NCBI GenBank assembly: GCA_022113835.1
Contig: JAILWY010000024.1
Location: 4,902,501-4,966,500, forward strand
Direction of reading: 5' to 3'
Source: Atopsyche davidsoni
Taxonomy: Eukaryota; Arthropoda; Insecta; Trichoptera; Hydrobiosidae
DNA length: 64,000 bases
Shown here piece after piece: positions 2,389-55,790 of this stretch; within the stretch, counting starts at the first letter, position 1, and each line of letters starts with the position of its first letter. Position numbers and translations under genes: made by a program. A model generated the notes under the pieces. The model saw only the letters and a list, made by a program, of their open reading frames with translations, did not search any database and was not told where the DNA came from.

Positions 2389-2796
2389 TATAAATGATAA
2401 GGGTAACTTTGTATTCTTTCTTCACTTTGAGTTTATTATACAATAGTTTTTGAATAACTAGTTTCGACCAACAGACTTGTTATCATCAGATTCAGAATAA
2501 AACTATCAAAATATACAAATAACATATGCTTAAATACAACCAACATGATACTGGCAACAATAAAAATTTTGACAAAATTAGATGAGGGTTATACAATTAG
2601 TTATGTTTATGGACTAAAATTTTGTGTTTACCGTTTAAATAAAAATAAAATAATAAAGATTAATAATCAAAAATAATAGTAAACTAGTCATGAAAAAACT
2701 ATAATAAACTCAAAGTTAAGAAAGAATACAAAATTACCCTTATCTTTAATAAAAAAATGGATCTTCACCAATCAAATGCCTTGTCTCTAAACAAGA
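2389..2796 (+). mobile_element. Family-a foldback element (Penelope-like, non-autonomous), copy 1
   Basis: A 408-bp insertion flanked by identical 11-bp repeats GTAAATTTCAA (2378-2388 and 2797-2807). Its arms are inverted: GATAAGGGTAACTTTGTATT at about 2396 and the complementary AATACAAAATTACCCTTATC near 2725-2745. A non-palindromic tail follows, containing ATGGATCTTCACCAATC, which is also present in copy 2. The left arm, read on the minus strand, has a hammerhead-like core (2461-2489): CTGATGA, a spacer able to form a short stem, then GAAAC. Inferred to be a short Penelope-like retroelement because the target duplication is long and the tail is single-sided. It carries no ORF. Confidence 0.6.
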
Positions 2797-2976
2797 GTAA
2801 ATTTCAAGTTTTTTTAATACTGAGACCCAAACTTTAGATAAGAGAAAGCATCAAACATTTCAATACCTCAAAAACCGCAAAAGCATCGAGTAATATTTCT
2901 TGTATTGTTTTGCGTTTGTACCGTTGATTTTTATTTTTAGGAAGGTTGTGATCTTATCAAACTAAAAAACCCTTAC

Positions 2977-3095
2977 CTATTTCCAGATACTTCTGATGAA
3001 CGGAATCGTACTCATCCCACGTGATTGTTCTGAAACGGTTTCTCTCCCTCGATGCCGCCAGCAAAGTCTCTTGCCGGAAGTGTTCGTTTGGATTC
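2977..3095 (-). CDS. Neuroligin internal exon (end of esterase-like domain)
   Basis: This 119-nt exon on the minus strand has the acceptor tttaaattgtttcag above 3095 and the donor GTAAGG below 2977. After one leading base it encodes 39 residues beginning NPNEHFRQETLLAASRERNR and ending with WDEYDSVHQKYLEI, then leaves one base (phase 1) for the next exon. The RERNRFRTITWDEYD...HQKYLEIG pattern is characteristic of insect neuroligins near the end of the esterase-like domain, before the segment usually starting MKPK that leads to the membrane-proximal stalk. It follows the exon at 19847-19998 in frame. The remaining C-terminal exons (end of the domain, transmembrane helix, PDZ-binding tail) were not found below 2977 and probably lie outside the window. 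Confidence 0.88.
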
Positions 3096-4004
3096 CTGAA
3101 ACAATTTAAAATTAAACACAATCAGTTAAAAGTTTTTCATAAAATTATCAGTTACCATCTTGCAAATATACAAAATCTATCTAGGGTTATTTTTTTTTTG
3201 TGAAATTATTTTATCACTACGTAAATAAATTTTTTAATAAAAAGCAGAAACCCTGTTTTGCACAATTTGTGTATTTGTTATAAAATATTTTTAAAATTAT
3301 TTCAATCTTCATTGTTTACAATCGTCATGTCTCGATTTCTTTGTTGCTTGTGTTTTACCATTTTTTTGATTATTGAAATCATCTTATGAAAACATTTAAA
3401 TATATATATTCAAATATTATCAAAATATTATTCACTATTCACAAAAGACCGAAAGTCTCACATCGTTTAAAAAAAATCGCAAGAATAGCTCCCCTTAAAA
3501 ATTCAACAAAATTAATTCAGAATTTTTCTCACAACAATACAGGATACGCAAAGCATAAAAAAATAATACACAAATTCACTTCTCGTGTACCGGAAGCGGG
3601 CGGGAGCTCAAGTTTCCTCCGAACACGCCAACTTCCGGCTCCGGGCTATCCGGTGCATAATTTTAATTTTGTCTTTTCCCATACAACTCGCTGAAATATT
3701 CAGAAACTTTGCAAGTTTTCCAAAAGTTCGGACATGGCGGACAAATGGAGCGACCGTCGACCCGCTTTACGTTTGTTGCCATTTTTTTTTAAATGGCGAA
3801 AAATTTTTACCACACGTCATGCAAAAAGGGAGAACTTATTGTTACTCTATTTTTTAATGATCATTTATATCGTACCATTTTAATTTAATTTTAGTACCAT
3901 TTTTTATGTCTTGGAGGATGACCTCTAAAATCATACAAGTGTATGTTTATTTTAATAATAAAATTAATATTTGTTGTTTAGTAAGACAAAAATAAGTTGT
4001 TAAT

Positions 4005-4024
4005 GGGTTAGGTTAGGTTAGGTT
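4005..4024 (+). repeat. Interstitial telomere-like TTAGG tract
   Basis: Three perfect TTAGG units in a row (4008-4022), preceded by GGG and followed by TT. TTAGG is the common insect telomere repeat and short internal tracts are frequent, so this supports an insect origin but is not evidence of a telomere. Confidence 0.6.
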
Positions 4025-4300
4025 TCATTTTCCATGTAATCATTATCAGGAATGCTTAGAATAAACTTTCAATCTCAAATACCTGCTCTCAATTATGTGA
4101 ACTCAATAGGTAGTCAAAACGATTAAATTTTTCTTCTAAAACTTGTGAGATACTAAATAAAGTAATTTTTAAAAATTTATTAGTACAACTAGAACAATTT
4201 CTTTAAAAAAAATATTATATATGCGATGCAAATACAGAATTTCTATGCTACTGGAATAGGCCGGATAATTTGGAACAAACCTACAGGGTAGAAAGTTTAA

Positions 4301-4344
4301 TTAATGGAACTGGTATTTATATTGTAATACTCCATTTTATTATA
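4301..4344 (-). mobile_element. Solo 44-bp tail of a family-c foldback element
   Basis: The block from TTAATGGAACTGGTATTTAT to CCATTTTATTATAA equals the outer tail of the family-c copies at 42265 and 53451. It is flanked by TAGAAAG followed by TTTA on one side and ATTA on the other, a probable 11-bp target duplication with one change. If real, this is an insertion consisting of the tail alone, as expected from severe 5' truncation during target-primed reverse transcription. Confidence 0.5.
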
Positions 4345-4818
4345 ATAGAAAGATTACGGTTATTTTTTAGCCTACACGAATTTCATAACCACTGAATCAA
4401 CAACCCAAAATTATATTCAATACAACAAAAGACCATATAAATCTTTATTGGTCCGAAGCATTCGTTTAGTATCGCGAAATTCTCGATACCACCTTAAATG
4501 TAGTCCGATAAATATCATTTTACAATGTGCAGTCAGTATTGCTTATTACATAAATCTCCGGGCATAAATATTATGGCCCGTTGGAAACACAATTCATTTT
4601 TATTATTTTGTTTATACAGTGTAATGCCCGGGAGTTATGTGAGTTTTACTCGCAGCCGGATGGGGGTCAGCACGGTTATTATCTACTTTGCGATTATATG
4701 CGCCCCCGGCTCAGAGCCGCAGCACTGTAACTCTATTTGTTTTTATTTGTTATGGCTGTATCGCCATACAACAGCGCCCAATGGCTTGTCTCTTTATTGC
4801 CTCTTGTGAAGCACCGTT

Positions 4819-6012
4819 GTCTACTTAATTGAATATGATTAGGGTTTAACAAATATAGAAATTAAAGACATGTATAAAAGCAACATCTACGTATGGAATC
4901 ATGTGTAAAGGATGCTGAAAGCGTCCTATTGCTAGTTAATTTTTCTTTTGTTGATTTCACTCAAGGTCATCGAGTATAAACATGCCTTTCAGGGCTTAAA
5001 AATGCAGCCTGAAAAACCTGCAAACTCATCCGTTTTACTACTGAAACAAGCAAGCATTGATGAGAATCGCCAAGCGTTAAAAATCATATAATTGTTTATT
5101 TCTACTGTCTCCAAACGCAACAATTATGACATACCTTTTAAGTAAATCTCAACTGGATTTATATTCTTCGCAAATATTTTCCATTAATATACTGCCTTTT
5201 GATAAGCACTGATATCTACTTAATTGAATATGATTAGGGTTTAACAAATATAGAAATTAAAGACATGTATAGAAGCAACATCTACGTATGGAATCATGTG
5301 TAAAGGATGCTGAAAGCGTCCTATTGCTAGTTAATATTTCTTTTGTTGATTTCACTCAAGGTCATCGAGTATAAACATGCCTTTCAGGGCTTAAAAATGC
5401 AGCCTGAAAAACCTGCAAACTCGTCAGTTTTACTACTGAAACGAGCAAGCTTTGAAAGATTTATTCGTTGGTCAAGTATTAAAAATGATATATTTGTTTG
5501 TTTCTACTGTCTCCAAAAACAATAATGATGACATACCTTTGAAGTAAATCTCAACTGGACTTATATCCTTTGCAATTATTTTTCATTAATATACTGCCTC
5601 TTGATAAGCACTGATGTCTACTTAATTGAATATGATTAGGGTTTAACAAATATAGAAATTGAACACATGTATAGAAGCAACATCTACGTATGGAATCATG
5701 TGTAAGGGATGCTAAAAGCGTCCTATTGCTAGTAAATATAGCTAATGTTGATTTCACTCAAGGTCATCGAATATAGACATGACTTTCATGGCTTAAAAAT
5801 GCTGCCTTAAAAACCTGCAAACTCGTCAGTTTTACTACTGAAACGAGCAAGCATTGAAAGAATTATTCATTAGTCTTAACATGAGAATCGCCAAGCGTTA
5901 AAAATTATATAATTGTTTATTTCTGCTGTCTCCAAACGCAATAATGATGACATACCTTTTAAGTAAATCCCTACTGGATTTATATCCTTTGCAATTATTT
6001 TCCATTAATATA
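4819..6012 (+). repeat. Tandem array, three units of about 396-401 bp
   Basis: The landmark CTACTTAATTGAATATGATT starts at 4821, 5217 and 5618 (spacing 396 and 401). Each unit continues with AGGGTTTAACAAATATAGAA, ATCTACGTATGGAATCATGT, GATTTCACTCAAGGTCATCG, AAAACCTGCAAACTC, CTGTCTCCAAA and a final ATTTTCCATTAATATAC-like segment. The units differ by scattered substitutions and by an indel around GAAAGATTTATTCGTTGGTC, which is absent from the first. The reading frames differ between units, so this is not coding. It is a short satellite-like local array, with no sign of a transposon end. Confidence 0.85.
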
Positions 6013-7062
6013 CCGAGTCCTTTGAAAATCTGTTATATCTTTCTTTGTGATTGGGAAAAGCAGGCAACAAAAGGAAGACTTGAGTGTGAGTAAAACGTTT
6101 TACATCGAAAAACTTTTGATCGAAAAATAAATAATAAGTGTCTTATTAGTCATTTTCATTTAGGCGCTTAAAATTAAAATTCAATGATTTATTTTGTTGT
6201 GTTTATTTTGTAGTAATTTTTACCTTAACAAAGTCAGAATCGACAACTTTGTGGCAATCTTCTAACGCTCTAGTAAATATCTTAAATATTGTATAGCATT
6301 TATTAATTAACGTTTTTTTTTTAAATTACTTGGTAAATATTTAAAATGTACCAAATCATCATAAATTGATGCAATAAAGCATATTTTCGATTAACTTCAA
6401 TTCGATAAATTATCGTGTGTTGAATGTTTTCACAACCCTCTGTAATTCCACCCCCGTGTGGAATACTTTTTTATTTTTACTCAGTGGTCACATTTTCACG
6501 TAACACTGCTGAACTTAAACCGCCGGGACGGACGTAGGATTAAGTCTTTTTGTTTTTTTTTTATATAGTTTTATTTATTGTGTCTTCTAATTAAAAATGG
6601 TAGCCGGTTCTATCTCCTGTAGTTTATTCGTCCCTTTTGTTTCCACCGCGATAAAGAAGACAAGATACTCTTTGTTGGGAAAAATTTACAATCGGTTTAA
6701 AGTGAAATTAAGGCTTTTTTTAAAAAAACTCAAGAAACTTTTTTACAATAGTGATATTAAAGCAAACCAATGCTGAAAATTATTTTTTTTCACTATTTTT
6801 CCATGATGCAAAAATTAAGTGCAATAATGATTCAAAAATATTACGTGAAACATAAAAAGGGCGTTCGAGGCCTGTTCAAATAGTATCGCAAATTTTAAAT
6901 TTTCACGAGTTACGTGTATTCAATTTACGTTTTTTTTTTTGGCATCATGTTGTTACTCATGTTTCTCATTTATACCGACAATTTCAGCCATTGTTCAGTT
7001 AATTATTGACAGCTGCTTTTCTTGCACGTATTTTGACTCGTCTTCGATCTTTGCCCATTCCA

Positions 7063-7919
7063 AAAAATGGAACAATGAATCTGTACAAAATTTTGTGTGA
7101 AAAACAAAATTAATTCCGAATGTTGACTGTAGCATATGGTGAAGCCACTTTGTGTCGAAACAACGTTTATCAGTAGTACAAAATTTTCTCAGAGAACTGA
7201 GAAGATGTGAACGACGAAGAGCGTGCCAGACGCCCGAGCACGCCAACAACTTACGAAAACATTGATGAAGTAAAGAAAATAGTATTGGCCAACCGTTGAA
7301 TTACTCTTAGAGAAGTTGCTGAGGACTTAAACATATCGATTGGCTCTTGCCATTCGATTTTAACCAATGATTTGGGCATGAGACGGGTCGCCGCGAAATT
7401 CGTACCAATATTGCTCAATTTCGACCAAAAACAGTTAAGGAGCTGTTTGACTCTGTCTGCGACGATTCAAATTTGCTCCAGAGAATTATAACTGGTGACA
7501 AAATATGAGTTTATGATTTTTACATGGAAACTAAAGCTCAATCATCCCAATGGAAGCTGCCGCACGAGCCAAGACCAAAAAAGGCGCGCCAAGTTCGCTC
7601 GAATGTGAAGGTTTTGGTGACAGTTTTCTTCGATTTCAGGGGCGTAGTGCATCATGAGTTCTTGCCACAGGGTAGAACGGTTAAAAAACAACACATTAAT
7701 AGTGCCGCAGCCACTGTATTCCCTAGATCTGGCCCCCTGTGACTTTTTCTTGTTCCCAAAACTGAAGAGACACATGAAAGGACGTAGCTACGCTATGATT
7801 AAGGAGATAAAGACGACATCGAAGATGGAGCTGAACAAGATCACAAAAAACGATTTTTTGAAGTGCTTCGACGATTGGAAAATTCGTTGGAACAAGTGTA
7901 TAATATCTAGTAGGGAATA
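7063..7919 (+). pseudogene. Mariner transposase relic, internally deleted and frameshifted
   Basis: Three stretches in different frames make up a mariner DD34D-type transposase. The helix-turn-helix part is near 7215-7400, with STPTTYENIDEVKKIVLANR, then an in-frame stop, then ITLREVAEDLNISIGSCHSI. The middle is at 7524-7690, with ETKAQSSQWKLPHEPRPKKA and VFFDFRGVVHHEFLPQGRTV. The end is at 7690-7919, with YSLDLAPCDFFLFPKLKRH and NDFLKCFDDWKIRWNKCIIS. Right after LPQGRTV (about 7683) the sequence jumps to the NNTLI.PQP segment before the last acidic residue, so the part normally holding the HHDNAPAH-like aspartate motif is deleted. It cannot encode an active enzyme. Confidence 0.85.
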
Positions 7920-8474
7920 ATATTTTTGAATAAAATACTTGTGAGTGAGTGATTTTCCACATTATTATTTTTATTAGTGACCGGTTTCGCCAACCTTTCG
8001 CGTTGGCATTATCAAACAGAGTGAAAAAATTCAAAAATATTAAAATGGAATTCCACCAAGTTCTCTCTGTCAAAAATATTGAATATATACTTATCTAATT
8101 TTTATTATTTTTATTACCGTTCTATTTCAAGGTCAAACAAAGTCTTGAAGATGTTGAAACATTTGATAAAATGACGACTTTTCAAAAAAAACTTTGCTCA
8201 AGTTTTTTTTATTTTTAACCCACGTCGAGGGTTTATATGGAATCTTTTAATTCCAATTTAAAAAAGGACACCTAAGTGCTTAGGGTTGTAGATCTGGGGA
8301 AAGGATCGATCTCCAATTCTTAAGCCTCAATCAGGAAAACGTATGCCAACGGGAAAGGTTGGCGAAACCGGTCACTAATAAAAATAAAAATGTGGAAAAT
8401 CACTCAAGTATTTTATTCAAAAATATTAAAATGGAATTCCACCAAGTACTCTCTGTCAAAAATATTGAATTTCT
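7920..8474 (+). mobile_element. Family-b foldback element inserted in the mariner 3' end
   Basis: A 555-bp insertion with an identical 12-bp target duplication TAGTAGGGAATA (7908-7919 and 8475-8486). The arms are inverted copies of CACTCAAGTATTTTATTC, AAAATGGAATTCCACCAAGT and CTCTCTGTCAAAAATATTGA. The left arm (minus strand, 7984-8015) holds the core TTGATAA, stem GCCAAC/GTTGGC, GAAACCGGTC. In the right arm the GAAACCGGTC part is at 8364-8373, with its 5' half cut away. The interior (8105-8340) resembles the TTAA-type repeat (AAGTCTTGAAGATGTTGAAA, TGACGACTTTTCAAAA), so the two families share a body. There is no ORF. Confidence 0.65.
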
Positions 8475-8522
8475 TAGTAGGGAATAGATAAATAATTTTA
8501 TATTATATACTTTTTGAACAGA

Positions 8523-9419: not shown

Positions 9420-11549
9420 CTAAAGAGCATTAAAATTATTCAATAATAACAAAAGAAATAGATGAATCGTGAAATAATAATAGAACTTATTTGTTTCTAT
9501 GACAAATAAATGATAAATGAACAGAATGGCAATACACGACGCATAGAAACTAAAAATCACGATGCTTGTAGTGACTTTCATATTTCACTCAAGGTCATGA
9601 AAAAACATTGGAGGCTTTTAAAGAAATCATTTGAGATTTCTTATGAAATACTAGATTTGTGGAAAAGTCTTTGCAAAGAAGGCTCTGTGTTGACAAACCC
9701 TCAGTTATGAAAGAAAAACTGAAAAAATATTTTTCTAGCAGAAAGAAATTGGAGGGACTGAGTGTTTTTGGGTCTTCAAAGTAAATATATTGTCTCCTTG
9801 AGTGCATCGAGGCATTCGAGTATTTATTTTTTATCATACCAAATATTAATGAAATGTTGATTTTTTTAATGAAAAAACCTTTTTATGCATTGAATAAAAT
9901 GAAATAATAAAGCAATAGAAATCGTTTGTATTGTAAAGGAATCAGAATAAAGTTTAAATATATTTTTTTATATTTTATCACATGCGTTGCAAAAAACACT
10001 CTATACGTAAAAATTAAACATTTTAATAAATTTATACATAAAAGTAATATTCTTTAAATATATTTCTGCTTGTACACAAAAAATAAGGAAAAGCAATATT
10101 TGAAAAATCAAAGTTGAAATGCTGACACAAAAATATATTAAGAAAGTGTAGAGAGCTTTTATCCCATTGATGGTATATTATTTTAGACGTCATATAAACT
10201 CTTCTTTTTGTGATATCTCAAATAAAAATGTTCACTATTGTAAACAACACTCGGAGGGGAGAGACATGCTTGTGTTGGTTGTTTCAATAAAAGATTTGAA
10301 GCAGCTTTGTTGTACAAGCAGGTAAAAAAAAACGCCTTTACAAAGAGTACTTTTATATTGTAAAATTACGTAGTATTTTTTAAAAGTTATTTTAAAGAAA
10401 TAAAAAATGTAATTCTTAATAAAGCGTCTTGAGAAGTATTTAGCAATAAAATATATTAAAACACTTTGCTCATCTAAGGAATGTTTTTTTTTTATCTGTT
10501 TTGTGAAATTAATAAGTTAAATCATAAATTGACGACCCCTTAATCAAGGCTCAAAGATCTTACAATTGAAAATATTTTTTTTAATATACAACACGTAATC
10601 AATGCAAAAAATAAATATATTATTTAGTATATTAACGTTTTAATTTCAACTCTCCGCATGTTTAAACGTTGAAGTCATCCAAACTATTATTTTAATAAAA
10701 AAAAACAAGACCTTTTCGAAGTCTGTTTTTTTACATTGGCATGCAATGAAGATTTACATTGTATGAAAAATATTTTGATATTTAATGCTTTTGCTCTAAT
10801 ATTAATAATAAAAATACTGCTTTCATCGACTTTGCTCAAAACACATAAAACTAATACAATAATAAAGTAATTGATGTAATATGCAGGATACTTCACAATA
10901 TCAACATAAATATTATATAAAAACAACCTTTTTTTAATAAAAGTTACGTTCACATATTTACTTGCTCAAAATCTTTAATCTATCTTTAATTATGCCAGTT
11001 TATTGCAGGATATACACAGCTTATCCGTTAATCGAAAATAGTAATCAATCTAATCCCAGATGTAACTGCTTCAATCAATGTCGTTGATTAGAATTAATTA
11101 TAAGGTTTAAAGAGACATTGGACCGATTCACTCGAGATGATCCACAGATGATTGCTTTGGTAAGTGGTCCCTCGTTAAATGGATTTGCCCAGATGTGGAC
11201 GTGTACACGTGAAATAGTTATACCTAACTCGGGCGAAATTACCAATTACTACGTGTACAGTAGATGTTTGTGATAAATCAATATTTATTATAAGAAATAG
11301 GCGTTTTCAGCTATGTATGATATAAATTTATTATTTTTACAGTAAATACGATTCAGATTTTGGTTTAAAAAGTATTGTATGATTTCAGTCATAATCGATG
11401 GCATTTTATTTTTGATATCGAAAAATACACTTCAAGAATACTCCAATCAAATTTGTAATCTCGATATCAATCTAAATTATTAAAAATATTTTAAAATACA
11501 GTAGAAATCCGAATCGCGAAACCCTCAATATTTAAATACATACATATAT
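9420..11549. other. No recognised gene
   Basis: AT-rich intron sequence. A mildly GC-richer patch at 11090-11280, containing GTGTACACGTG, has no ORF. Nothing here matches the repeat families of the window. Confidence 0.4.
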
Positions 11550-11602
11550 ACTTTCTTCACTTTGAGTTTATTATAGTTTTAGCATGACTAGTTTGACAAT
11601 AA
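11550..11602 (+). repeat. Family-a foldback end fragment
   Basis: CTTTCTTCACTTTGAGTTTATTATAG, then ATGACTAGTTTGAC, matches the left arm of the family-a element at 2415-2465. The sequence diverges at the GAAAC motif (TAGTTTGAC instead of TAGTTTCGACC), and no partner arm or target duplication was found. Confidence 0.5.
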
Positions 11603-12016: not shown

Positions 12017-12018
12017 AT

Positions 12019-12050: not shown

Positions 12051-12059
12051 GTCCATTAC

Positions 12060-12556
12060 CTGGCGAAATCGTGTCATTGAATTAATTTAATTGTCACTTT
12101 ATTTTTCTATGTCGAAAGCTGATTTTTTTAAAAAGTATTGAAAAAACTATAAATCATATTTACATATTTTTTATTATTTAACTAACGTCCATTTTCAGGG
12201 TTAAATAAAATCTTGAAGATGTTGAAAAATTTGGTAAAATAACGACTTTTCAAAACCAAAGTTTGTTAAAGATTTTTTTTTTTAATTTTTAAAGTAATAA
12301 ATCGCACAGGGTTTATATTCAATATTTTAATTTTAATTAAAAAAAATTTTTTTTAATGTTTAGGACTCTTGGAAAAGGGACATGACGAATCTCCAAATTC
12401 CTATACTTTAATCGGAAAAACACATATTTATCATATTAATAGTAAATTTATAAGAAATATAAATATATTCTGTTCGGAAAAAGGGATGTATCAAACTTTT
12501 TGCATTTAAATTTTTTTAAATGATCAAAAAAACTCGATTACGGAACCTAGACCCTT
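12060..12556 (+). repeat. TTAA-type dispersed repeat, copy B
   Basis: About 497 bp, collinear with copy A, from CTGGCGAAATCGTGTCATT to GGAACCTAGACCC followed by TTAA (12555-12558). The interior contains TCCATTTTCAGGGTTAAATA, TAACGACTTTTC and TCGCACAGGGTTTATATTC. There is no ORF. Confidence 0.6.
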
Positions 12557-24022: not shown

Positions 24023-24094
24023 TAATATATTTTTTTATTGCGTTTAAAGTATGTGTATGTACAAGCTTGAATCTTCTTCTGAATAAATTTATAT

Positions 24095-24308
24095 AATGAT
24101 AAAAGTAACCTTTTATTCTGTCTTTACTTTGAGTTTAGTTTCGACCAATAAAAGTTTAGTTATGCATCTGATGATGACCTAGTCTATTTGGTTGAAACTA
24201 GTGATGCAAAAAAAAATGCAATAAACTCAAAGTGAAGACAGAATACAAAGTTACTTTTATCATTATAATAATGGATCTTCACCAATCAAATGCCTTGTCC
24301 CTCAACAA
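24095..24308 (+). mobile_element. Family-a foldback element, copy 2
   Basis: A 214-bp insertion flanked by an identical 14-bp duplication GAATAAATTTATAT (24081-24094 and 24309-24322). The arms are GATAAAAGTAACCTTTTATT and the complementary AATACAAAGTTACTTTTATC. The tail ATGGATCTTCACCAATCAAA matches copy 1. The right arm has the hammerhead-like core at 24168-24198: TGCAT before CTGATGA, GACC/GGTT stem, GAAAC, then TAGTGATGCA, so TGCAT/ATGCA can form stem I. The presumed cleavage triplet reads GTG, not GTC, which argues against self-cleavage in this copy. Confidence 0.65.
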
Positions 24309-24399
24309 GAATAAATTTATATCCTGAACCAGGCTCATTAGTTCGGCTGTACTTCCAACTTTCAGCTAATGGTGAAATTTTGGCATCCACGTAAGTTTT

Positions 24400-25228: not shown

Positions 25229-25739
25229 CAGAGGTTCCCAAAGTGGTCAATATCGACCCCCGGGGATCGATTTTGCCCTGCAAGGGGTCGATGACAGCGA
25301 AATATAAAATTGGGGGTCCATGATCTGTAAATGGGGGTCTACGAGAGTGAATCCCATTTAAGCAGGTCATCACCAAAAATATAGACATTTCGTAAATATC
25401 ATAATGCTCCGAACACAGATTGTACCGATGTACTTTGTGACGAATCGAAGCCCTGAAGCGTAGAAGTATTTTGTATGTTTTTAATTAATGTATTTTATTA
25501 TATTTAAATGTAATTCTACCTAGTATTCTCTGTCAAAAATATTGATTATCTGAATGTTATAATTAACTTTACATGTATTTTAACTTTTTCATTTTTAAAC
25601 CCACTGTACAGTAAACCCTATGAAAGTGAGTTGTTTTATATAGGATGTCAAAAATATGTTTGAACATGATGAATTCTTCGACGAAAAACAGGAAAACTCG
25701 ACAAGGGGTCGACGGGACAAAATAGTTTGAGAAACTATG
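25229..25739 (-). mobile_element. hAT deletion derivative with 8-bp target duplication
   Basis: A 511-bp element starting CAGAGGTTCCCAAAGTGG and ending AATAGTTTGAGAAACTATG. Perfect 8-bp duplications CTTTATGG lie at 25221-25228 and 25740-25747. The left part has GGGGATCGATTTTGCCCTGC, AAGGGGTCGATGACAGCGAA and GGGGGTCTACGAGAG, shared with copies at 42992 and 57388. The right part has GATGTCAAAAATATGTTTGA and AGGGGTCGACGGGA. No ORF remains. A family-b end remnant (CTCTGTCAAAAATATTGA, about 25528) is embedded. Confidence 0.8.
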
Positions 25740-36202: not shown

Positions 36203-36233
<31 letters not shown>

Positions 36234-39200
36234 TTCCGCTCGCCAACCGGGAACCGAGGGAATCCGGGATCAATAGGAAAGCCGACGTAATTTTTTTAAT
36301 TAACCCTAAATTGGAAATAAGACTAATTTTTAATGGATCCCTTTCTTTTGTAGCTCGGTTTTGATGTTATTAATTGGTGATCTCGTTCGTTTCGAAGCGA
36401 TGGTATTCTTTTCGTTTTAATATTTTATGTGAACGGTCGCAACTCACTTGATAATAAAACATTTTTCTCATGATTTCATGTAATATAAAATTATAATAAC
36501 GCCTAAATTTTTATTTTAAAATATATTTACGGTAAGATATGCTTTATTGCTTGGGGTGCTCCAATTACATATTTATTAATAGTCGAACAGTGATTAATGC
36601 AATTCACAAAACAGCACTAATCTTCGCACCCTTCAAAGATTATGTTTGCCATAAGTAGCAGCATCTGCTGTAGCACAAGAAGCGTTAGTTCTTAGCAGCA
36701 ATTTATTATCGCCTTGTTTCCTTAGATACCGAGTCCTGGGCCACACATTGTGCGCAACCTCTTTACTATCTGAAATGCTTTCTGAACAAATCTCCACGCC
36801 TCGTGCGAGCACTCCCGTGTGCTTAGATATTTTATGAACGAATGTACAGGGTGGCCTCTATATATTTCTAAGAAGTATCTAAATATATATTTTTGTCAAA
36901 AAGATGTGTCTAATACCCAAATTTTTATTTTTTTAATCAAACATCATTTTACAGATATTTTTGACAAAAACTACTTGTACGAATCCCATTTTATTATATA
37001 AGTAATAAAAAATTGTTGTTACAACCATTGTTTTAAGTTTCACCAATAACCTTGGTTGGCATTTTCAGGCCTTTTAAGCTATATAAAGATCGATAAGAGA
37101 CAAAACTAAAAATGTTATTTAAAAGCTGGGTTGCCTTGCTGTAATCAGCATATAAAATATTATTTCAACTACTCAAAAGTAAAAGTAAAAAGTAAAAGAT
37201 TTCATTTTTATATCAAAAAAAATTTTGAAAACTTTTCTATATTCATTTCGTTTAATGAAATAATCACATATATATTATATATTTAATAATATGTATTGGG
37301 CACAAGTTTTATAAAAAAAAATTGTTGTAAATGACCTTGGACATTTTGCAAAATATCATGTGAGTATTCTTAATGTCGCGTGGGATAAATTTTGAGATAT
37401 CTTCCATTTTGTAGTTGTAATATCCGCCTTTGTGGGGGAAACAGAACATATAATAAACCTTGTCTCTCCGCCAGAAGCCTCTGTGGATATCTTATTATAA
37501 TAAATATTACAGCCACGCACGCATACGTAAGAAACACAACGTTACAACAAACGCGAATAGCCAAACGGCTAGGTGATCACGAATCGTTTTATTTGTGAGC
37601 GCATTTGTCTTTGAGTACTTTTTCGGCAGCCGGTAAATATTTGATATACGCTTATAAATTTAAAATAATTTGTAAACTATTTAATGTGACCTTTATGATT
37701 TACATTTTTTTTTTAGATAAATAAGATTTTTTTTATATGCTTGAAGATGCCAATCCAGCATGTTGGAAAAACTGCTTTAAGAAGGATAACACTTAAAATA
37801 TTTATTTGGTAGAGAAGGTATTGTGAAAAGACTCAAGCCAAATAAATAGTATTGTAAACTATATAAGAGAGCAATATCTTGTTGATAAACATTGTATTAG
37901 ATTGTATAGAAAAACATATTTCCAAACGTTTTATCTTTGACTTTAAATAACTTGTGACGATACTAAAAACGTAACAGCATATGGCAGATCGAACAAAACT
38001 CATAACTGTACAACTATTTTATTTTATACTCAGCATTGTGGACATTGAAAAGCTTTGGCAAAAAAACAAAACAAGTAGAACTTGGCAAACAAAGCCGGAG
38101 ATCGTAGTCAACAAGCGCCCTTAGGTGGGATCGGTCCTCCCCTATTAGAGATGAATGACCGGAGGGTGGAAATCTGTATTTCAGCGAATAATATAACGGT
38201 CATTGAAAACTCACTTTGCCTGAAAAAATACCGAGAACGTGGGCAAGTGACTGAAACCAAAACCCCCAGGACTTTTTGTTTAATACAATCAAGACTATTT
38301 CATGGAATTCAGACAACAGATTTAGTGCAAAAAAAACCTTTTTCAAAATCATAAAAATTATATGAGAATAAAAATAATTTAATACTAACCCAATTTTTTT
38401 TCGAGATGAAGTATATCATAATGTAAGGGTAGAAAGTTGTGATATGCATTAAAAGTAGGCTTGATCCGAATCTCCATTCCTTTAATATCTTACCTGGAAA
38501 ATTATATTAATAATGACACCGGTGGGATCAAAAAACTTTTTAGAGATTACTTAAGCATTGTTTATTTTGTTTTTTTTTCTACTTCATCAATTTACGAACT
38601 TGAGTTTCTACTGTACATCGGTTATAATTATATAATTCCTTCTAGAAATAACTTCAGTCTATATTTTCGATGTTTCTTACGCGAAAGAAAGAAAACGAAA
38701 AACAGGCGATATTATCTTCTACCCGATACTTGTGGGTTTTAGGAGAAGGCATTGATGAAAACACAGGGGAAAACCACCCTTATTAAATGACGCACTGGAG
38801 GCCCCTTTGTCTTGGATGTTACATCTTACAGTAGTATAAATAATGGAAAGTTCTTCTAATTTATATGGCTAGGTTCTTCTCAATTTTTTTTCAAGGGTTT
38901 ATTGGTATACCAGTTGCAATTATCTAATGAAAAAACGTTATTTATTATTTAAGAATCCAAAAAAATATATCAATTATTTACGTAGTATTCTATGTACTTT
39001 GATTATTCATATTATTTACTTAAAAAAATATTATTGCTTTCAACAGCATTTGAAGACATCTGATATAATGGTATATTAATTGTTATTTAAAATTAATATT
39101 TTGAGTTATTCTGAGAACGTGAAATTATTCAAGCTTTGAATATTCATTTTCGCGTAAATTGACAAGTCTTTCTCGGCTATTTTCATTTTGATATTAATTG

Positions 39201-42039: not shown

Positions 42040-42215
42040 AAAACCTGACTATCCAAAAACGATTAATGGAAGTGATTCGTTAGTACAAGGGTTAGTACAC
42101 CAGCCATGTAAGCCTGGGGATGTGGCTTCAAATCCCACAAAAATCACGATGATATTTTTCTGAGAATTTCTTTATGTGTGAACTAATGTGCCTAATCATA
42201 TAAGTAATAATCCAA
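42040..42215 (+). mobile_element. Inverted-repeat element with tRNA-Thr-like core, copy 3 (short)
   Basis: The core is at 42074-42146 (GATTCGT, TAGTACAAGGG A box, CATGTAA anticodon loop with TGT, T-arm with GCTTCAAATCCC), then CACGATGATATTTTTCTGAG, AACTAATGTGCCTAATCATA. The B box has G-to-C at GGCTTC. The outer segments are missing on both sides. Confidence 0.6.
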
Positions 42216-42264
42216 AAAACTTCAAAGTTTGAAAGCACATAAAATTCGTATATAATAGTTTTGA

Positions 42265-42485
42265 TTAATGGAACTGGTATTTATTTTGTAATACTCCATT
42301 TTACTATAATAAAATTAATCCAAATGGTTTTGAAGACTACGTTAATTTCACTATTAGCGAGAGCTCTTTCGCCGAACACGGCATCTTCAAGTCATATTCA
42401 GTCTTGAAGATGCCGTGTTCGGCGAAAGAGCTCTCGCTAATAGTGAAACTAACGTAGTCTCCAAAACCATTTGGTTTTATTATAT
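42265..42485 (-). mobile_element. Family-c foldback element, copy with short arms
   Basis: A 221-bp insertion flanked by an identical 14-bp duplication TATAATAGTTTTGA (42251-42264 and 42486-42499). The arms around 42330-42395 and 42400-42475 are near-perfect complements: ACTACGTTAATTTCAC, AGCGAGAGCTCTTTCGCCGA, ACACGGCATCTTCAAG. Each arm carries TTGAAGA, stem GCCG/CGGC, GAAAG, a hammerhead-like core with GAAAG in place of GAAAC. The single-copy tail (minus strand) is AATAAAATGGAGTATTAC-like, at the left end. No ORF. Confidence 0.65.
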
Positions 42486-42591
42486 TATAATAGTTTTGAG
42501 TTACAATTTTTTTTTTAAATTATTTAATCGCCGGTGCTCACTTCTGGACTGTATAACGACAAGGCACGCGATGTTGTATTTCATTTTCTAA

Positions 42592-42850: not shown

Positions 42851-42991
42851 ATTCAGTTTTCAATCTAATATATCGCAAGGCAGATACAGCATTAATATTA
42901 ATCACAAGTGCTGCGTTCGTTGAATTCCAGATAGTTTACGAATTTGATATTAACGCTGAGATTGACACGTCGACGAAACGAGGCCTTACAC

Positions 42992-43496
42992 CACTGGTTC
43001 TCAAAATTGTCAATATCGACCCCCAGGGGTCGATTTTGCCCTACAAGGGGTCGATGATAGCGAAAAATTTAATTGGGGGTCCACGAACTGTAATTGGGGG
43101 TCTACGAGAGTGGATCTCATTTAAGCAGATCATCACCAAAATTTAGGAATTCCGTAAAAGTCATAATTGAACACAGATTGAATCTATGTACTTGCATAAT
43201 AATGCTGTTAATCCTGCATCATTTACTATTGCAAGAAGGTTTTGAGACAGTTTTTCCATCTTCATACTACATGGAGAAGGTTTTCAGTGCAGTTGTCAAC
43301 CTTCTTACAAAAAAAAGAAATAATTATTCAATGTTTACATACCGACGTAAAATATGGCGCACCTGTATATCAGATGTCAAAAATATGTTTGAAGATGATG
43401 AATTTGCAAAAAATCAATATTAGCAAGGCAGGGGTCTACGAAAAACAGGAAAACTCGACAAGGGGTCGACGGGATAAAATAGTTTGGGAACCTTTG
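42992..43496 (+). mobile_element. hAT deletion derivative with transposase C-terminal remnant
   Basis: A 505-bp element from CACTGGTTCTCAAAATTG to ATAGTTTGGGAACCTTTG, flanked by perfect CCTTACAC at 42984-42991 and 43497-43504. The left end shares GGGGTCGATTTTGCCCTAC and GGGGGTCTACGAGAG with the 25229 copy. The right half keeps coding-like EGFETVFPSSYYMEKVFSAV, VNLLTKKRN, then a shifted frame, resembling the C-terminal dimerisation part of ZBED/SPIN-type hAT transposases (..FSAV..LLTKKRN). Too short to be active. Confidence 0.8.
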
Positions 43497-45813: not shown

Positions 45814-48470
45814 TTGTAGGCTTCTTCCTTGACGTCATATATTTGCGGAATTCAACCCTACGCTAAACCTAAAGCCTCAAAAATAACGCGATGTTCATTT
45901 TTACTCCTCACGACAGACTACTAAAAAAAATATTTTCTCATAACGCATATTTTGATTTTTGACTTTGTCTTGTAGAAAGATCAAAAGCGCTTTCAAACAA
46001 AAACAAGAAATATGCTTATATAAATAATAAAAATATATTGAATTATTTATCATACATTTTGCATATTTTTAAAAAAAAAGTTTTTTCATTTTTCTAAAAT
46101 TGACTTTTTTTAAATTTAAAATTTAAAAGCATTAAAAGAAGTTATACTTTTTTTGCGCTATAGCCTCCAAGCACCCCCGGAGCAGTTAAGTCGTTTCAAA
46201 AATCTAAAATGTATGCTGGGTTAAAAAACCTACCCCTACAAAGTCTTTGTAAGAAGTTTTAAGCTATACACTGTAATGTACTTAGGATGTATAATTAGAA
46301 GAATTTGCGTTCATTTTTTAATTAAAAATGAGTTGGGTTTGTAGCTTTTTATATTTTTATTTGTATAATTTTCTTCATCACAGAGGGAGAGAGAGAAAAA
46401 AAAAACTTATGAATAATCTTATAATAGAAAAATTTATTTAAAATCTGAACAGAATTTTCTTTTGCTGAAATTTATAATTGTAATGCGGGTAATTAAAAAT
46501 TGTAGACACGCTTAAATTTTTTTATGAAAAAAATTTATTAATAATATGAATCTTCGCCAAGTATAAATAAACCGTTTTTGGGCAACGAATAAGGAATTAC
46601 GGCGGCCAGTTCATAAATTTTAATTATTCCCAGAGTAACGTTACTTAATAACTTATCACTGTTCTTCCGAGACTATCTTAACGGTAACGTTTCTATCGAA
46701 CACACGTTAAGGCCTCACTTACACCAGAACCTGCAATAGAATTCTACCCTATCGCAGAGCTGAAATTCTTTCAGTATGAGAGACTAATGACCCCCGAGAA
46801 TTATTTGGCTTTGTTCTCAGGCGATTTTTCGCCTTGTGCCTTGTTTTATGGGCGGGCCAAGGGCGAATTTGGCTTATCGTTGCCCATTGTGGGTATTGGA
46901 CACGTGTTTTTGTGTAATGCTCGCCTATTGAGGTTTTTGCACAGAAAGATGCGTGAGAGAAGATAAATTGCGCCGAGAAGAATTACGAATGTATTAAGTG
47001 AATATTATGATAACGTTTTTTTTGTGGAAATTAGCTGGTTTCTTTGATCCAGTTATTAGAGAACGATTAGGAGAGATACAAAACATTAACATACTTTTGA
47101 TTTAATGCTAGAAAATAATCAACGAGAGTTATCGTTTAAAGGAAGGGAATTTGATCCCACACCTCTACAAAATAATGAATATTTTTATGACACAGACTCT
47201 ATCTGTAGTGAGTGATTCTTATGTTGTAATAAATAACTTGAATGTTTAATAAAATATAAACTGTGTTTGAACATTTTTGATATAAATAATTATAACATAA
47301 GCATTTTCAAAGCAAATGTTTGGAAACGAATAAAAATTACGTAATATTTAGAAAGTATGAATTAATGTCTTTGATAATATGTAGTGTAGTTTTTTTGAAT
47401 AAATATAATGTGTTGTTAAATAATGTAATAATAATATTAAAACTTTAAACCAACAAAATATAACCTTATGACATTAATGTTTTACTGCGCAGTCATAAAT
47501 TTTTCACTTATTTCACAAAGCGATTACTTTTAAAACTAATTCTGCTTTATTGAGTATATGCAGATTTTTAATATTTATAAAAATTCTAGTTAAAAAGGTG
47601 GTCCAGATTATAATTTTAAAAGCCTCTCTTACATAATGCTAGTATTGGAATTGTCCAAAAGCAACTGAGTACGAATAATGTTCATTATCTACGGTCACTG
47701 CGTATTTAGATTCGATCGAACATTGGATAAAAGAACGTAAAGGCTTCGCGGGCACCAGGCAGATTAATCGACCAAGCCTTTGATGTGAAAAATGACGTGA
47801 AACGAACGCGTTAATTAATTAACAACTTGTGGAAGGGTTGATTGAAAACTCGCAAGTCATTGAGGCCGCCAAGGGGATGATTTTACCCCGAAATAAAAAT
47901 ATTAATACGCCTTTCAGCCTGGCTTTTTTTTGCTACAAGGAAATTTTAAATACATTTTCGCCGTTTATGATTATGATTAAATTATGAATAGATTTTGACA
48001 TGAGAATTTTTTAACATTTTTAATACCAGATTTTTTTTTTTGTAATTAAAACATCATAGACACTGACTTTTGATTTGACTTAATATTTACTCCTATTTGC
48101 TAAAATCAAAAGGTTTTTTATAATTTTTTAACAAAGATTTTTTTTTTCGCTGTTTTATGTTGTCAAAGAGGAAATATTATTTTGCGTAAATATAAAATTA
48201 TCTAGTTAAAATATTAGGATTATTTAATATCGTGAAGTTTAAACATCACCGTTGACGAGCTCGAGGTAAATATTTGTGCCGAAATCTCGAAATACCGCTC
48301 GAAAAAGTGATGAAAAACGCAGCAAAAAGGATACATTTTGCTATGGACAATAAAGGCAGCCATTTGATTGATTTTGTGTTTAAAAACTTGTTTAAATAAA
48401 TTTAAAAAAACCAAATTTAATAAAAATATATCAAACATATATATATCATATTTTTTAAAAATGTTATTTA
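45814..48470. other. No recognised gene; GC-richer patch 46680-46950
   Basis: The patch reads GGCGATTTTTCGCCTTGTGC and GGGCGGGCCAAGGGCGAATT without a matching protein. The rest is AT-rich. Confidence 0.35.
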
Positions 48471-48968
48471 GTATTCACATACCGACATAAAATATGGCGC
48501 ACCCTGTAATATGTATATTTGTATATGAAACTGCATTTCTACTAGATCTAGAAAACAATAGAAATCGGTTGTTTTTTTTAAAATTTATTTATTATTCACA
48601 CACCGACATAAAATGTGGCGCACCCTGTAATATGTATATTTGTGTATGAAACTGCATTTCTACTAGATCTAGAAAACAATAGAAATCGGTTGTTTTTTTT
48701 TTTTCATTTATTTATTATTCACACACCGACATAAAATGTGGCGCACCCTGTTATATGTATATTTGTATATGAAACTACATTTCTACTAGATCTAGAAAAC
48801 AATAGAAATCGGTTGTTTTTTTTTTCATTTATTTATTATTCACACACCGACATAAAATTTTTTTAAAATGTTATTTAGTATTCACATACCGACATAAAAT
48901 GTGGCGCACCCTGTTATATGTATATTTGTGTATGAAACTGCATTTCTACTAGATGTAGAAAACAAGAT
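48471..48968 (+). repeat. Tandem array, five partly truncated units of about 121 bp
   Basis: ACCGACATAAAAT occurs at 48481, 48602, 48725, 48846 and 48888 (spacing 121, 123, 121, then a truncated 42). Units contain TGTGGCGCACCCTGTAATAT, GTATATTTGTATATGAAACT, GCATTTCTACTAGATCTAGA and AAACAATAGAAATCGGTTGT, a T-run and TTATTATTCACAC. The fourth unit breaks off after TAAAATTT and restarts with sequence seen before the first unit (TTAAAATGTTATTTAGTATT), suggesting unequal exchange or replication slippage. A related CATACCGACGTAAAATATGG, CGCACCTG lies in the hAT copy at 43340. Confidence 0.9.
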
Positions 48969-49832: not shown

Positions 49833-50139
49833 AAAATATATAAAATATTCTATAACATACTGTAGAAGTGAACATAAGTACATGCCTTCCACAGATTCAA
49901 TATGCATTACCATTTTCGCACCAGGGAGTTATTTAGTTCGGGCAAGGGTTGCGCTGGTCACGTACCCCCGTGATGGCGGGGGTGTGCCTACTTATCAAAT
50001 GAGCAGAGAGGTCTCGCCCTATCTGCGGCTGTGGCACCTCTAAAATGTTATGTGGTACCATAGCAGCCTTGGAGCTTAAAACGATTCTTTCAAATGTACT
50101 GTTTCTCTGATTTTATTTATTGTATTCGCTGAGAATATA

Positions 50140-50678
50140 CATATTATTGAGTAAAATACTTGAGTGATTTTCCACATGTTTGTTTTTATTTGTGACCGGA
50201 TTATCAAACAGGGTGAGATTTTATATAATAATAAGCAATTAGGTAAACAATAGTTACAGGGAGAGGTAATTGGAAAGAGAGAGCGTGATTGTCAGGTGGT
50301 AAAAACTAATGTGATTTTAATGTACTTGACAAGAAACACTACTTTAGATAATTACCCCATTAATATAAAAAAACATTTGTTCACAAAATTTGCAATTATA
50401 TAGAATCCTCCACTTGTCAGGTACATTAAAATCACATTAGCTCTTACCACCTGACAATCACTCTCTCTCTCTTTCCAACAACCTCTCCCTCTAACTATTG
50501 TTTACGTAATTGCTTATTATTATATAAAATCTCACTCTGTTTGATAATGCCAACGTGAAAGGTTGGCGAAACCGGTCACAAATAAAAACGAACATGTGGA
50601 AAATCACTCAAGTATTTTACTCTAAAATATTAAAATGGAATTCCACCAAGTACTCTCTGTCAAAAATATTGAATTTCT
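50140..50678 (+). mobile_element. Family-b foldback element with asymmetric arms
   Basis: A 539-bp insertion flanked by TGAGAATATA (50130-50139 and 50679-50688). The arms are long inverted repeats: GAGTAAAATACTTGAGTGAT, AAACAATAGTTA and GTGATTGTCAGGTGGTAA on the left have complements on the right. The right arm carries the core TTGATAA, GCCAAC/GTTGGC, GAAACCGGTC (50541-50575). In the left arm exactly 23 nt are missing at 50199/50200, from the T of the GAAAC complement through the hairpin. The tail AAAATGGAATTCCACCAAGT follows only on the right. No ORF. Confidence 0.7.
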
Positions 50679-50688
50679 TGAGAATATA

Positions 50689-53440: not shown

Positions 53441-53450
53441 TATGATTTAC

Positions 53451-54001
53451 TTAATGGAACTGTTATTTATTTTGTAATACTCCATTTTATTATAATAAAA
53501 TAAAACCAAATGGTTTTGGAGACTACGTTAATTTCACTTGTAGCGAGAGCTCTTTCGCCGAACACGGCATCTTCAAGACTGAGTCTATACAGAAAAAAGC
53601 GAGCTTATACATAAAAAATTCAACAAAAATACATGAATCATAGATTATACTACAAACAATTACAAAATCTGGAAAAATGCTACTAAAAATAGTACTTAAA
53701 TAAACTAGTTTGTGATTAAATAAACCTGAGGACAGCCAGGAATCATCACTACTTAGTATTAAAATTATTGCTGTTAATATCATTTTAATGGGGTTTTACA
53801 GCACTCAATAGAAGCATTTTTCCACATTTTGTAATTGTTTGTAGTATAATCTACGATTCATGTATTTCTTTTGAATTTTTTATGTATAAGCTCGCTTTTT
53901 TCTGTATAGACTCAGTCTTGAAGATGCCGTGTTCGACGAAAAAGCTCTCGCTACAAGTGACATTAACGTAGTCTCCAAAACCATTTGGTTTTATTTTATT
54001 A
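53451..54001 (-). mobile_element. Family-c foldback element, copy with long arms
   Basis: A 551-bp insertion flanked by TATGATTTAC (53441-53450 and 54002-54011). Arms of about 200 bp (53505-53690 and 53808-53995) are inverted: CCAAATGGTTTTGGAGACTA, CGTTAATTTCACTTGTAGCG, GGCATCTTCAAGACTGAGTC, TATACAGAAAAAAGCGAGCT. The intervening region is about 115 bp and unique. Both arms have TTGAAGA, GCCG/CGGC hairpin (CGAC in the right arm), GAAAG (GAAAA in the right arm). The tail on the left equals that of 42265 and 4301. No coding function. Confidence 0.7.
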
Positions 54002-54011
54002 TATGATTTAC

Positions 54012-55714
54012 TCATTTGTTCTGGGTACACATAACTTAAATATTTAAAACTAAAGGCTTCATCAGACACAATTCAAAGAAACATAAATATTGATCTGAAT
54101 AACACAATTTCAAAAACCAATTTCAAACCTAATCGAAACTAAAAGCGTTCAAACTCCGCCCCAAAAGCTCTCGAATCTGTGACACGGCCTTATTAAGCTA
54201 TATTTAAAAATGTGTCGAAAAAATATGTCAGGCTTAGATCTCCACCGTAAGTCCATACATAAATTATTCTCGAATTATGCAAAGCGTAGCCTTCGCGGAA
54301 CATCTCGAGGGGGTTATTTACACGTAAATTGAAATACTGCTCAAAAGTCACTGTATAAGACGGAAAAACTTCTTCCGGTCGGAAACGACTTGCGCCGAGG
54401 CTCTGCGACACACCCCGAGAGCCTCCGAGCAGGGGCGGCAACCAGCCCCGGCAATTTTGAATTTCCGGTAATATCAGCCACTTCGGTTATTGTGTTCTGT
54501 CTTTGAGATGGGCCCGGATGTACCCTCGAAGGGGTGTCATATATTCCGCTTTATTTTGCGCCTTACTGCGTTTTATTTTTATCAAGCTGAATAATATGGT
54601 TTTGGTTTAAAAAAGGGACTTATAATTAATAATATACGACACACACTTAAGCTCGTTAGTTGTGTAATTTAGACTGCTGGATGAGGGTAGTTGTCCACAT
54701 ACTTTAAATGTCGGAGAACTGAAAAACTTTAAACAGCACAACATGCATAAAAAACCAAATACCACAACTTATAAAACTTTTCTACGTCTCTTAAAATACT
54801 TTGTTTATTCAAACCAAAGGTTTTGAATAAATTATGAAAAAATTCTTACCTCAAAAAAATATATATATATGCATACTAGTTACTGAAATAAATATATAAA
54901 TGTAAAAATGTCTTGCTGGCCAACAAATAACAATTCATTACTCGATAATAGAATTTTAGGAATTCAAAGTGTCATTTTTATATTTTTACTTATATGAGTC
55001 GTTATATTTTTCTATTATACTTCGATTAATTCTGCAATACTACACTTAAAAATGTATAATGCAACGCATTAAAATTAAATTGAAAACATTGGCTTGTGAT
55101 TTATCTAGATAATTCGTGAATAAAAGAGTTAAGTAAATATTTAACATTCTGCTCACATTTTTCTTAGAATAAAAAGTTCAAAAATGTATAAATAAACTAC
55201 TTATTTTGAGCTTAATGCTTTGCTACGAAATATTTTACGTTAATGTTATTTAAGGGTGTAAATGAGATAAATCGTATCACAACATTATTTATTTATTTTA
55301 TAATATTGTACCTTAATGACCCAATCAATACAATGTTTCTTTATTTAGATATTAGTTTAAAAAAATACCTAAATGTGTTTGTCAAGTATAAACAAGATAT
55401 AGTATGGAATAAAAATTATATTTCCGTTTCACTATGAAATATTGGGAGATATATTTTACTAGGCAGCCCTAGTATGAGCTGAGCAGAATTTGCATACGCT
55501 AGGCCACTTTAGAAAATCCCATATGCAGAGGCTGTTAACATAGTAATCTGCCCCCTCTAGATGGTACCTGTACAGTGCACAAGTATACGTGCAAAAACTT
55601 GCACTTACACCTGCACAATCTAGGATGATGAAGATAATGTATGAAATAATTACCTCCCTGAACCGTTTAACCTTAATAATTTTCAGGAAAAAAATCGCTG
55701 AAACTATTTTTATT
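54012..55714. other. No recognised gene; GC-richer patch 54250-54550
   Basis: One 82-codon minus ORF (54193-54441) covers the patch and resembles nothing I know. The rest is AT-rich with short homopolymers. Confidence 0.35.
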
Positions 55715-55790
55715 TGTAACCATTTATTTTTTTACCTCTAAACGTTTCGATTTTGGTAGTAATATCATCATTAGATATTCGATAATACAT
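55715..55790 (-). mobile_element. Family-d end: hammerhead-like core plus ATGG tail
   Basis: On the minus strand CTAATGATGATATTACTACC, AAAATC, GAAACGTTTAGAGG (55744-55774), then TAAAAAAATAAATGGTTACA, AATAAAAATAG. The layout (CTRATGA, weak stem, GAAAC, A-rich run, ATGG, tail) matches families a-c, but the stem is weak and there is no second arm. Confidence 0.4.

Follow-up and report, generated by a model that had tools for sequence, protein, structure and literature searches.

The window analysed here is a stretch of 64,000 nucleotides from Atopsyche davidsoni (Trichoptera; Hydrobiosidae), positions 4,902,501 to 4,966,500 of contig JAILWY010000024.1 in assembly GCA_022113835.1. It holds short foldback repeats of three families, here called a, b and c, and a doubtful member of a fourth, d. 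Families a, b and c have one order in common: a CTGANGA-like box, a T, a stem, GAAA, a palindrome, an A-rich run and ATGG, where a tail begins at one side of the copy. We argue that the family b foldbacks are copies of the pseudo-long terminal repeat (pLTR) and the start of the open reading frame (ORF) of a Penelope-like retrotransposon, and that a and c are likely alike. They were probably made by cutting both strands of the target and copying RNA from two internal points. Positions within copies of b, a and c are counted from the ATG of the tail; L is the point beside this ATG and R is the point inside the ORF.

Element borders were judged by exact target duplications, with 2,000 random pairs of window stretches as the control. 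Chance matches of at least 10 bp turned up in 35 of the 2,000 pairs (1.75%). The six longer foldbacks are real inserts, with duplications of 11 bp (a1), 14 bp (a2), 12 bp (b1), 10 bp (b2), 14 bp (c1) and 11 bp (c2):

2389..2796, plus strand: family a foldback a1, tail at 2757-2796, duplications GTAAATTTCAA at 2378-2388 and 2797-2807.
Start at 2489, minus strand: inverted hammerhead-like core of a1, stem II damaged.
24095..24308, plus strand: family a foldback a2, tail at 24271-24308, core at 24163-24208.
24081-24094 and 24309-24322: target duplications of a2, 14 bp.
7920..8474, plus strand: family b foldback b1, tail at 8431-8474, inverted core starting at 8015 (minus strand).
7908-7919 and 8475-8486: target duplications of b1, 12 bp.
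Interior of b1: second tail, in direct orientation, at 8045; part of repeat e, captured, at about 8087-8342.
50140..50678, plus strand: family b foldback b2, core at 50538-50580, ATG at 50635, tail at 50635-50678.
50130-50139 and 50679-50688: target duplications of b2, 10 bp.
42265..42485, minus strand: family c foldback c1, tail at 42265-42299, cores in both arms (42404, plus; 42390, minus).
42251-42264 and 42486-42499: target duplications of c1, 14 bp.
53452..54001, minus strand: family c foldback c2, tail at 53452-53485, core starting at 53576 (minus strand).
53441-53451 and 54002-54012: target duplications of c2, 11 bp.

The duplication lengths given in the initial annotation stand, except that c2 has 11 bp and not 10. 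The annotation also saw one anatomy in all four families. The pattern scan and the duplications bear this out for a, b and c, but d is a weak, single core. The right arm of b2 has the stem II hairpin and GAAA; the left arm (about 50196-50205) has neither, which looks like a jump of the reverse transcriptase over them.

The tails read open from their ATG: MDLHQSNALSLNK in a, MEFHQVLSVKNIEF in b, MEYYKINTSSIN in c and, by eye, MVTNKNSF in d. Four short frames would all be open by chance about 2% of the time, which is little proof alone, and an old b-type tail, at 25.5 kb, is interrupted by a stop. For b, better evidence comes from the genome (370.7 Mb). It yields first-look candidates for b (204), c (1,037) and a (2,084), 40 of which were scored per family, and each set of copies contains the window's own copy. 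At a b copy on contig C13 (L032, L033) a frame of 149 amino acids with GIYKLNCDSCDATYIGQTGRSFNTR lies about 275 bp upstream of the core. Pfam gives this frame a GIY-YIG match of only E 0.033, below the cut-off; the motif falls in the C-terminal part of the ORF. Used as a genome query, the endonuclease fragment gave 151 matches (150 of 716 candidates scored), and among the matches listed nine have 839-codon frames that end in the endonuclease. In all 30 of the endonuclease loci fetched from these 151, the b core lies about 275 bp past the stop codon. At C2 and C13 the matches are 2,801 and 2,809 bp apart on a single strand, so these are tandem units. The frame of L074 is open for 839 codons from stop to stop (about 810 from the ATG), contains the tail ATG and continues beyond it. 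L074 and the tandem junctions L054 and L067 read MEFHQVLSVKNIEFLNS..., and LYGLPKIHKANSPLRPVVSY is seen for L054 and L067. The pLTR passes through the tail into the next ORF at junctions L054, L063 and L067, though the frame of L063 ends early. A search with the first 677 residues of the ORF found 481 proteins among 7,990 candidates scored. Among the 120 homologues listed, most have RVT_1 (PF00078) and some GIY-YIG (PF01541), and the named ones are mostly from insects. The PDB gave no relative; four rows returned there all have E above 0.5.

Judged by its sequence, the family b tail spans roughly the first twelve codons of a predicted Penelope-like retrotransposon gene. Family b has the make-up of a canonical GIY-YIG Penelope-like element, with a predicted reverse transcriptase and C-terminal GIY-YIG in one ORF and pLTR units in tandem. 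It is not a separate non-autonomous element, as had been proposed, because its pLTR and tail belong to long open tandem elements of the same genome. The initial annotation was right that b is Penelope-like, that its copies are inverted and tailed at one side and that its core resembles a hammerhead, and it was right to give a and c the same anatomy. The link it had hoped for between a tail and a GIY-YIG reverse transcriptase is present for b (L074, L054, L067 and the endonuclease loci). The window itself gave no reverse transcriptase and no GIY-YIG in a Pfam scan of 26 of its 30 frame stretches, read with X at stops (all save the three minus-strand frames of 15-30 kb and the third minus-strand frame of 1-15 kb). 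That scan found only mariner pieces and a weak helix-turn-helix.

The ends of the copies are the next line of reasoning. The b set consists of 30 plus 10 loci, of which 39 were counted since L016 has no readable tail. Duplications of at least 10 bp flank 26 of the 39, compared with 2 of 39 controls that took their left flanks from other loci. Among those 26 the length is 10-20 bp, mostly 12-14 bp with a mode of 12. R falls at +39 to +45 in b and, in the copies fetched across the families, 34-45 nt into the ORF. There is an inverted left arm in 23 of the 26. Eighteen of these arms end at -11 to +1, fourteen of them at -6 to -2. Three of the others end at -23 or further upstream, and two were scored at +35 and +36; these two start with L-type letters and look like misplacements by the aligner. 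Eight of 12 family c loci have duplications of at least 10 bp, and all 8 have an inverted, tailless left end at L. An inverted arm was listed in 19 of the 40 scored copies of family a; 16 of the 19 end at -9 to +1, none past +1, and three stop within the arm. Five of 12 two-armed a copies have duplications of at least 10 bp, with R at +38 to +40. A sixth match of 10 bp, at +68, was dropped as a simple AT repeat. Two more a copies fit by eye: L005 (10 bp) and L025 (10 bp, one mismatch). In nearly all two-armed b copies the tail is at one side only. One-sided tails and short target duplications of variable length are found in a, b and c, with the exceptions of L038 and L030 discussed below.

The other end of each arm is also clustered in b. 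Right arms start at -96 to -103 in 30 of 40 copies, and inverted arms turn at -92 to -102 in 20 of 31, which is at the core (its start is at -94) or at most 9 nt before it. None of the 31 turn at -55 to -60, where a cut after C17 (-58) would fall. In family a the arms meet about as near the core as in b, with gaps of -2 to 30 nt (the query starts 8 nt before the core). We infer from these copies that the 5' end of the b RNA is near -101. The word TCACTC, whose A lies at -101, resembles an initiator, and with that A as the putative start GGTTG, at +28 to +32, fits the downstream promoter element. The subfamily letter is identical in both arms of all 22 readable b copies, therefore both arms come from one RNA or from sister RNAs. 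By eye, the word TCAAAAATATT precedes both b start sites in most copies (about -14 to -4 and +25 to +35). Microhomology at R is not claimed, since the outcome hinges on which template letters are assumed.

The core was sought with a pattern of stem I, the CTGANGA-like box, an optional extra base, stem II, GAA and a palindrome, designed after seeing the copies. The strict form has 3 matches in the window against a mean of 0.08 (maximum 1) over 100 shuffles. The relaxed form has 7, every one in a copy of a, b or c and every one with the extra T. It misses a1 because stem II is damaged there; the box and the T of a1 are still present. Since the pattern was fitted to the window copies, an outside match is the better test, and the same pattern also detects the Poseidon ribozyme of Anolis, extra U included, in the template printed in PMC11167929. 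The initial annotation held that the extra T makes self-cleavage doubtful. Yet the Anolis ribozyme, which has this U as well, is able to cleave in the presence of its protein (PMC11167929). All 7 window matches and that ribozyme carry the extra base, so by itself it gives no ground for doubting cleavage. We read it as no sign of decay, and these cores may be able to cleave.

The palindrome after GAA is ACTAGT in a, ACCGGT in b, AGAGCTCT in c and ACGT in both d and Anolis. This is what the formation of helix III by two paired copies would require. Penelope hammerheads reportedly cleave as dimers through type I cores with almost no helix III, according to a 2017 study. Stem I of family a varies in step: TGCAT/ATGCA in a2 and most copies, TGAAT/ATTCA in a1 and TGTAT/ATGCA in others. 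Twelve further a copies, each read as a stretch of about 340 bp, were picked for having two arms, found by an error-tolerant pattern, and have the core in both. Their 24 arms keep CTGATGA (21/24), GAAA (22/24) and ACTAGT (23/24). H17 is C in most of them, and the G at H17 of a2 looks like a private change. Family c has a poor stem I of a single pair and a U3/G8 core. The family b core is UUGAUAA, with U3/A8 in place of the standard C3/G8, in 39 of 40 copies; the exception is L015 with G8, while L013 keeps U3/A8 but has lost A9. U3/A8 is also present in the b unit with the 839-codon frame. The features of a minimal type I Penelope-like hammerhead are all found in a, and b and c retain the shape with changes in the core. 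Cleavage by the Anolis ribozyme is abolished by C3G or by G8C and partly recovered when both changes are made together (PMC11167929). By analogy, the U3/A8 of b may be a natural paired, or compensatory, change.

General models do not see these cores. The covariance-model scan that had been proposed as a check calls nothing: the Rfam hammerhead models have no match among the window copies, nor in L074. Single-strand folding energies of the cores do not differ from shuffles (z -0.69, 0.00 and -0.05), which is no evidence either way. In the predicted single-strand fold of b, the G of GAAA is the pairing partner of the extra U. Sub-threshold Rfam matches to mir-9261, MIR9560, MIR8007 and other microRNA families fall on the foldbacks (window 42354-42440 in c; L074 43-199 in b), and these seem to be caused by hairpin shape alone.

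A scan of IMG/VR with the motifs matched two viral contigs, with no Penelope element seen in their long ORFs, and gave no match for the b motif. One of the two, the phage-like contig L001, reads CTGACGA-T-GCC...GGC-GAA-ACG...CGT-C at 13740-13810 (minus strand), with a possible stem I of CCTT/AAGG and a stem III hairpin by eye. Its sequence resembles a type I hammerhead, including the extra U seen here; Rfam makes no call.

We consider the following route the probable one for b, and for a and c on the analogy of their anatomy. The element protein would cut both target strands and prime copying on its own RNA. One strand would start at R inside the ORF and the other at L beside the ATG. Both complementary DNAs (cDNAs) would run to the 5' end of the RNA, which in a and b would be just before the hammerhead. 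Their ends would then be joined, giving the reverse complement of the stretch from 5' end to L followed by the stretch from 5' end to R, between the duplications. This scheme explains why the tail is one-sided, why the ends fall at L and R, why the order is inverted and why many a and b copies have the size they do. The clustered ends match the two internal starts of reverse transcription reported for the Anolis element. Most b foldbacks would be short, strong-stop-like products of the autonomous element. Since the core is complete in most b copies, the RNA that they were made from would have been left uncut at that point until it was copied. That a dimeric enzyme works on one RNA is a guess. 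One can go further, though we do so tentatively and would not bet on it, and take the foldbacks as the fossil record of an integration intermediate. A dimer would prime one RNA with both cut strands at built-in L and R, and the cDNAs would reach the cap. Transcripts of the last unit would normally give a strong-stop foldback of about 250 bp, and longer copies would need read-through of the array. The hammerhead (in b with U3-A8 for C3-G8) would be kept as the 5' end of the RNA and be uncut in the RNA that is copied.

It must be noted that a number of copies do not follow this route easily. L038 is tailed at both ends and has no duplication of at least 8 bp, and L030 has a partial second tail. 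Duplications of at least 10 bp are absent from 13 of the 39 b copies, and one event may have entered the count twice, as L027 and L028, whose duplications are identical. The b left arms turn elsewhere in 11 of 31 cases, and some begin inside or beyond the core (L008, L010, L020). The b query spanned -99 to +45, so starts at the cut site rank low and the left arms are the only fair test. The 5' end near -101 is deduced from the copies. It is not general that the 5' end lies just before the hammerhead, because 8 of 12 c right arms start at -196 to -200, far from the core, and one at -110. Finally, the scheme alone gives no reason for L on one strand and R on the other, and the Anolis strands show no preference.

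Alternatively, one cDNA or an antisense template could have primed itself (snap-back) and so produced the inversion, the route put forward and preferred in the work on the Penelope elements of rotifers (PMC3846280). A hairpin from a single molecule would have the same subfamily variant in both arms, which all 22 readable copies do, and most b arms turn at a fixed point. What snap-back does not offer is a clear reason to stop at L, where most inverted arms end in a, b and c, and the Anolis enzyme in vitro has two start sites and extends both strands (PMC11167929). We find self-priming unlikely, if a serious contender. It is rather improbable that the foldbacks are separate non-autonomous families moved in trans by an autonomous Penelope-like master. 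In family b, long open elements share the pLTR and tail of the foldbacks, and in each of a, b and c the tail reads as the beginning of an ORF, which one would expect of pieces from the 5' side of coding elements. Other findings favour such a master. Both a and c are possibly numerous, going by their first-look candidates. In 12 family c loci fetched from the 40 scored, there is no endonuclease motif (by pattern, in three frames, 1.5 kb around) and no frame of more than 68 codons past the ATG. A repeat called f is also joined to a b-type tail twice with differing flanks, as expected of a mobilised chimera. No autonomous element was linked to c or to a, for which no search aimed at one was made, and in these two families mobilisation in trans may apply.

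Two other classes of element resemble the foldbacks at first sight. Animal retrozymes are small circular RNAs excised by hammerheads and copied back, and they are of comparable size (about 170-400 nt) and hammerhead content (PMC7229834). They would give arms in head-to-tail order. The arms here are inverted, the left arms of b turn away from the cleavage site (0 of 31 at the would-be cut), and in b the tail encodes part of the protein of an autonomous element. We rejected retrozymes as very improbable. Foldback DNA transposons, or miniature inverted-repeat transposable elements (MITEs), are even harder to credit. The copies are near-palindromic and have target duplications, but a MITE should have symmetric inverted termini and duplications of fixed length, the case the initial annotation named as contradicting it. 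Neither is found: the tail is at one side and the 26 b copies have duplications of differing length. Family b is also linked to an ORF with reverse transcriptase.

The window also holds fragments and diverged relatives of these families:

11547..11594, minus strand: family a fragment without a tail, absent from the initial annotation.
57753..57851, plus strand: single family b arm (core and pLTR), no tail, no duplication of at least 8 bp.
4296..4345, minus strand: lone family c tail, about the L-to-R stretch only, TAGAAAG duplications at 4289-4295 and 4346-4352.
55690..55780, minus strand: family d, a degenerate single core and doubtful member, core starting at 55774 (minus strand), ATGG at 55723.
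25500..25551, plus strand: diverged b-type tail with a stop at the second codon, at the end of repeat f (25178-25471).
57315..57371, minus strand: diverged b-type tail MEFNQILSVKNI, at the end of repeat f (57371-57663, minus strand).
36955..37010, minus strand: diverged b-type tail MGFVQVVFVKNI, with a degenerate core upstream by eye, CTGAAAAT-GCCAACC...GGTGAAAC.

The initial annotation had listed three of these, c at 4301, b at 57750 and d; the three b-type tails, like the a fragment, were not in it. The c sequence at 4301 is indeed a c tail but stands alone, and its 7-bp duplication is weak since chance often gives matches of 7 bp. The b sequence at 57750 is a true b copy but has only one arm. 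In family d the ATG is only 25 nt after GAAA; the looser pattern alone finds it, along with 4 unrelated matches, and neither an inverted arm nor a duplication of at least 8 bp was found in the window. At 25178-25551 and at 57315-57663 (minus strand), repeat f (about 290 bp) finishes with the end of a b-type pLTR and its tail, and has 7-bp candidate duplications. It is possible that this is a template-switch chimera that was later mobilised in trans. A third copy of f, at 42983-43167, has no tail.

The remaining repeats are of other kinds. Besides the piece in b1, repeat e has copies at 1131-1462, 12055-12403 and 16804-17043. Remnants of mariner transposase (Transposase_1, HTH_48) are at about 7.5-7.7 kb (plus strand), 34.8-35.4 kb (minus strand) and 62.7 kb (plus strand). 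Repeats that overlap tRNA matches or are similar to repeats that do, some in inverted pairs, are at 33101-33275, 35622-35706, 42060-42174, 60967-61088 and 61236-61462; they are probably a family of short interspersed nuclear elements. Tandem repeats occupy 4798-6013 (402-bp unit), 30832-31373 (187 bp) and 48464-48858 (121 bp).

The integration route of Penelope-like elements is an open question, and copies with clustered ends, one site per arm, allow a genomic test with large numbers. Short palindromic repeats of this kind, possibly in the thousands, could be misfiled as MITEs, non-autonomous elements or microRNA precursors. Such repeats can arise from an element whose long open frame survives in the genome. 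As a compensatory variant, the U3/A8 core is a natural candidate.

The closest known system is Poseidon of Anolis carolinensis (PAc; PMC11167929). Like b it has tandem pLTR-ORF units with GIY-YIG and reverse transcriptase, and its hammerhead, CUGAGGA-U-GCC...GGC-GAA-ACGU-C, has the same extra U and a palindrome after GAA. Its enzyme cuts and extends both strands. Copying begins at two adjacent sites inside the RNA, which either strand uses alike, and the tail spans the interval between these sites. The PAc ORF begins within the hammerhead and copying mostly starts 111-118 nt into it. Here, in contrast, the ATG of families a, b and c follows GAAA by 67-77 nt, with L next to it and R 34-45 nt into the ORF. 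The in vitro work ends at copying from the two sites and leaves later steps for validation, and the available sections of PMC11167929 hold no description of short foldbacks for PAc.

Inverted pLTRs, one-sided tails with the first codons and short duplications are already known from the Penelope elements of Adineta vaga (PMC3846280). Pen2a and its relatives have an inverted pLTR at the 5' side and a tail on one of the inverted pLTRs. Their duplications are 9-10 bp, the pLTR and tail hold the first ORF codons, and unrelated sequence is captured between pLTRs (PMC3846280). The copies described in the sections cited are mostly longer and have ORFs, whereas many copies here comprise nothing but two inverted pLTRs; their ends cluster at L and R, and the arms of a and b copies meet before the core. 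Metazoan retrozymes also have a type I hammerhead, low GC and a length of a few hundred bp, but they are head-to-tail and non-autonomous (PMC7229834), while the arms here are inverted and b is within an autonomous element.

A limited literature search found no published description of strong-stop or twin-primed Penelope foldbacks. Compared with the minimal dimer-type hammerheads that the 2017 study is said to describe, b differs by U3/A8 and c by U3/G8. As far as the literature was compared, what is new is these families, the many foldbacks of pLTR alone, the U3/A8 core, the clustering of L ends on the tailless arm in three families, and the extra U held in common with the Anolis ribozyme.

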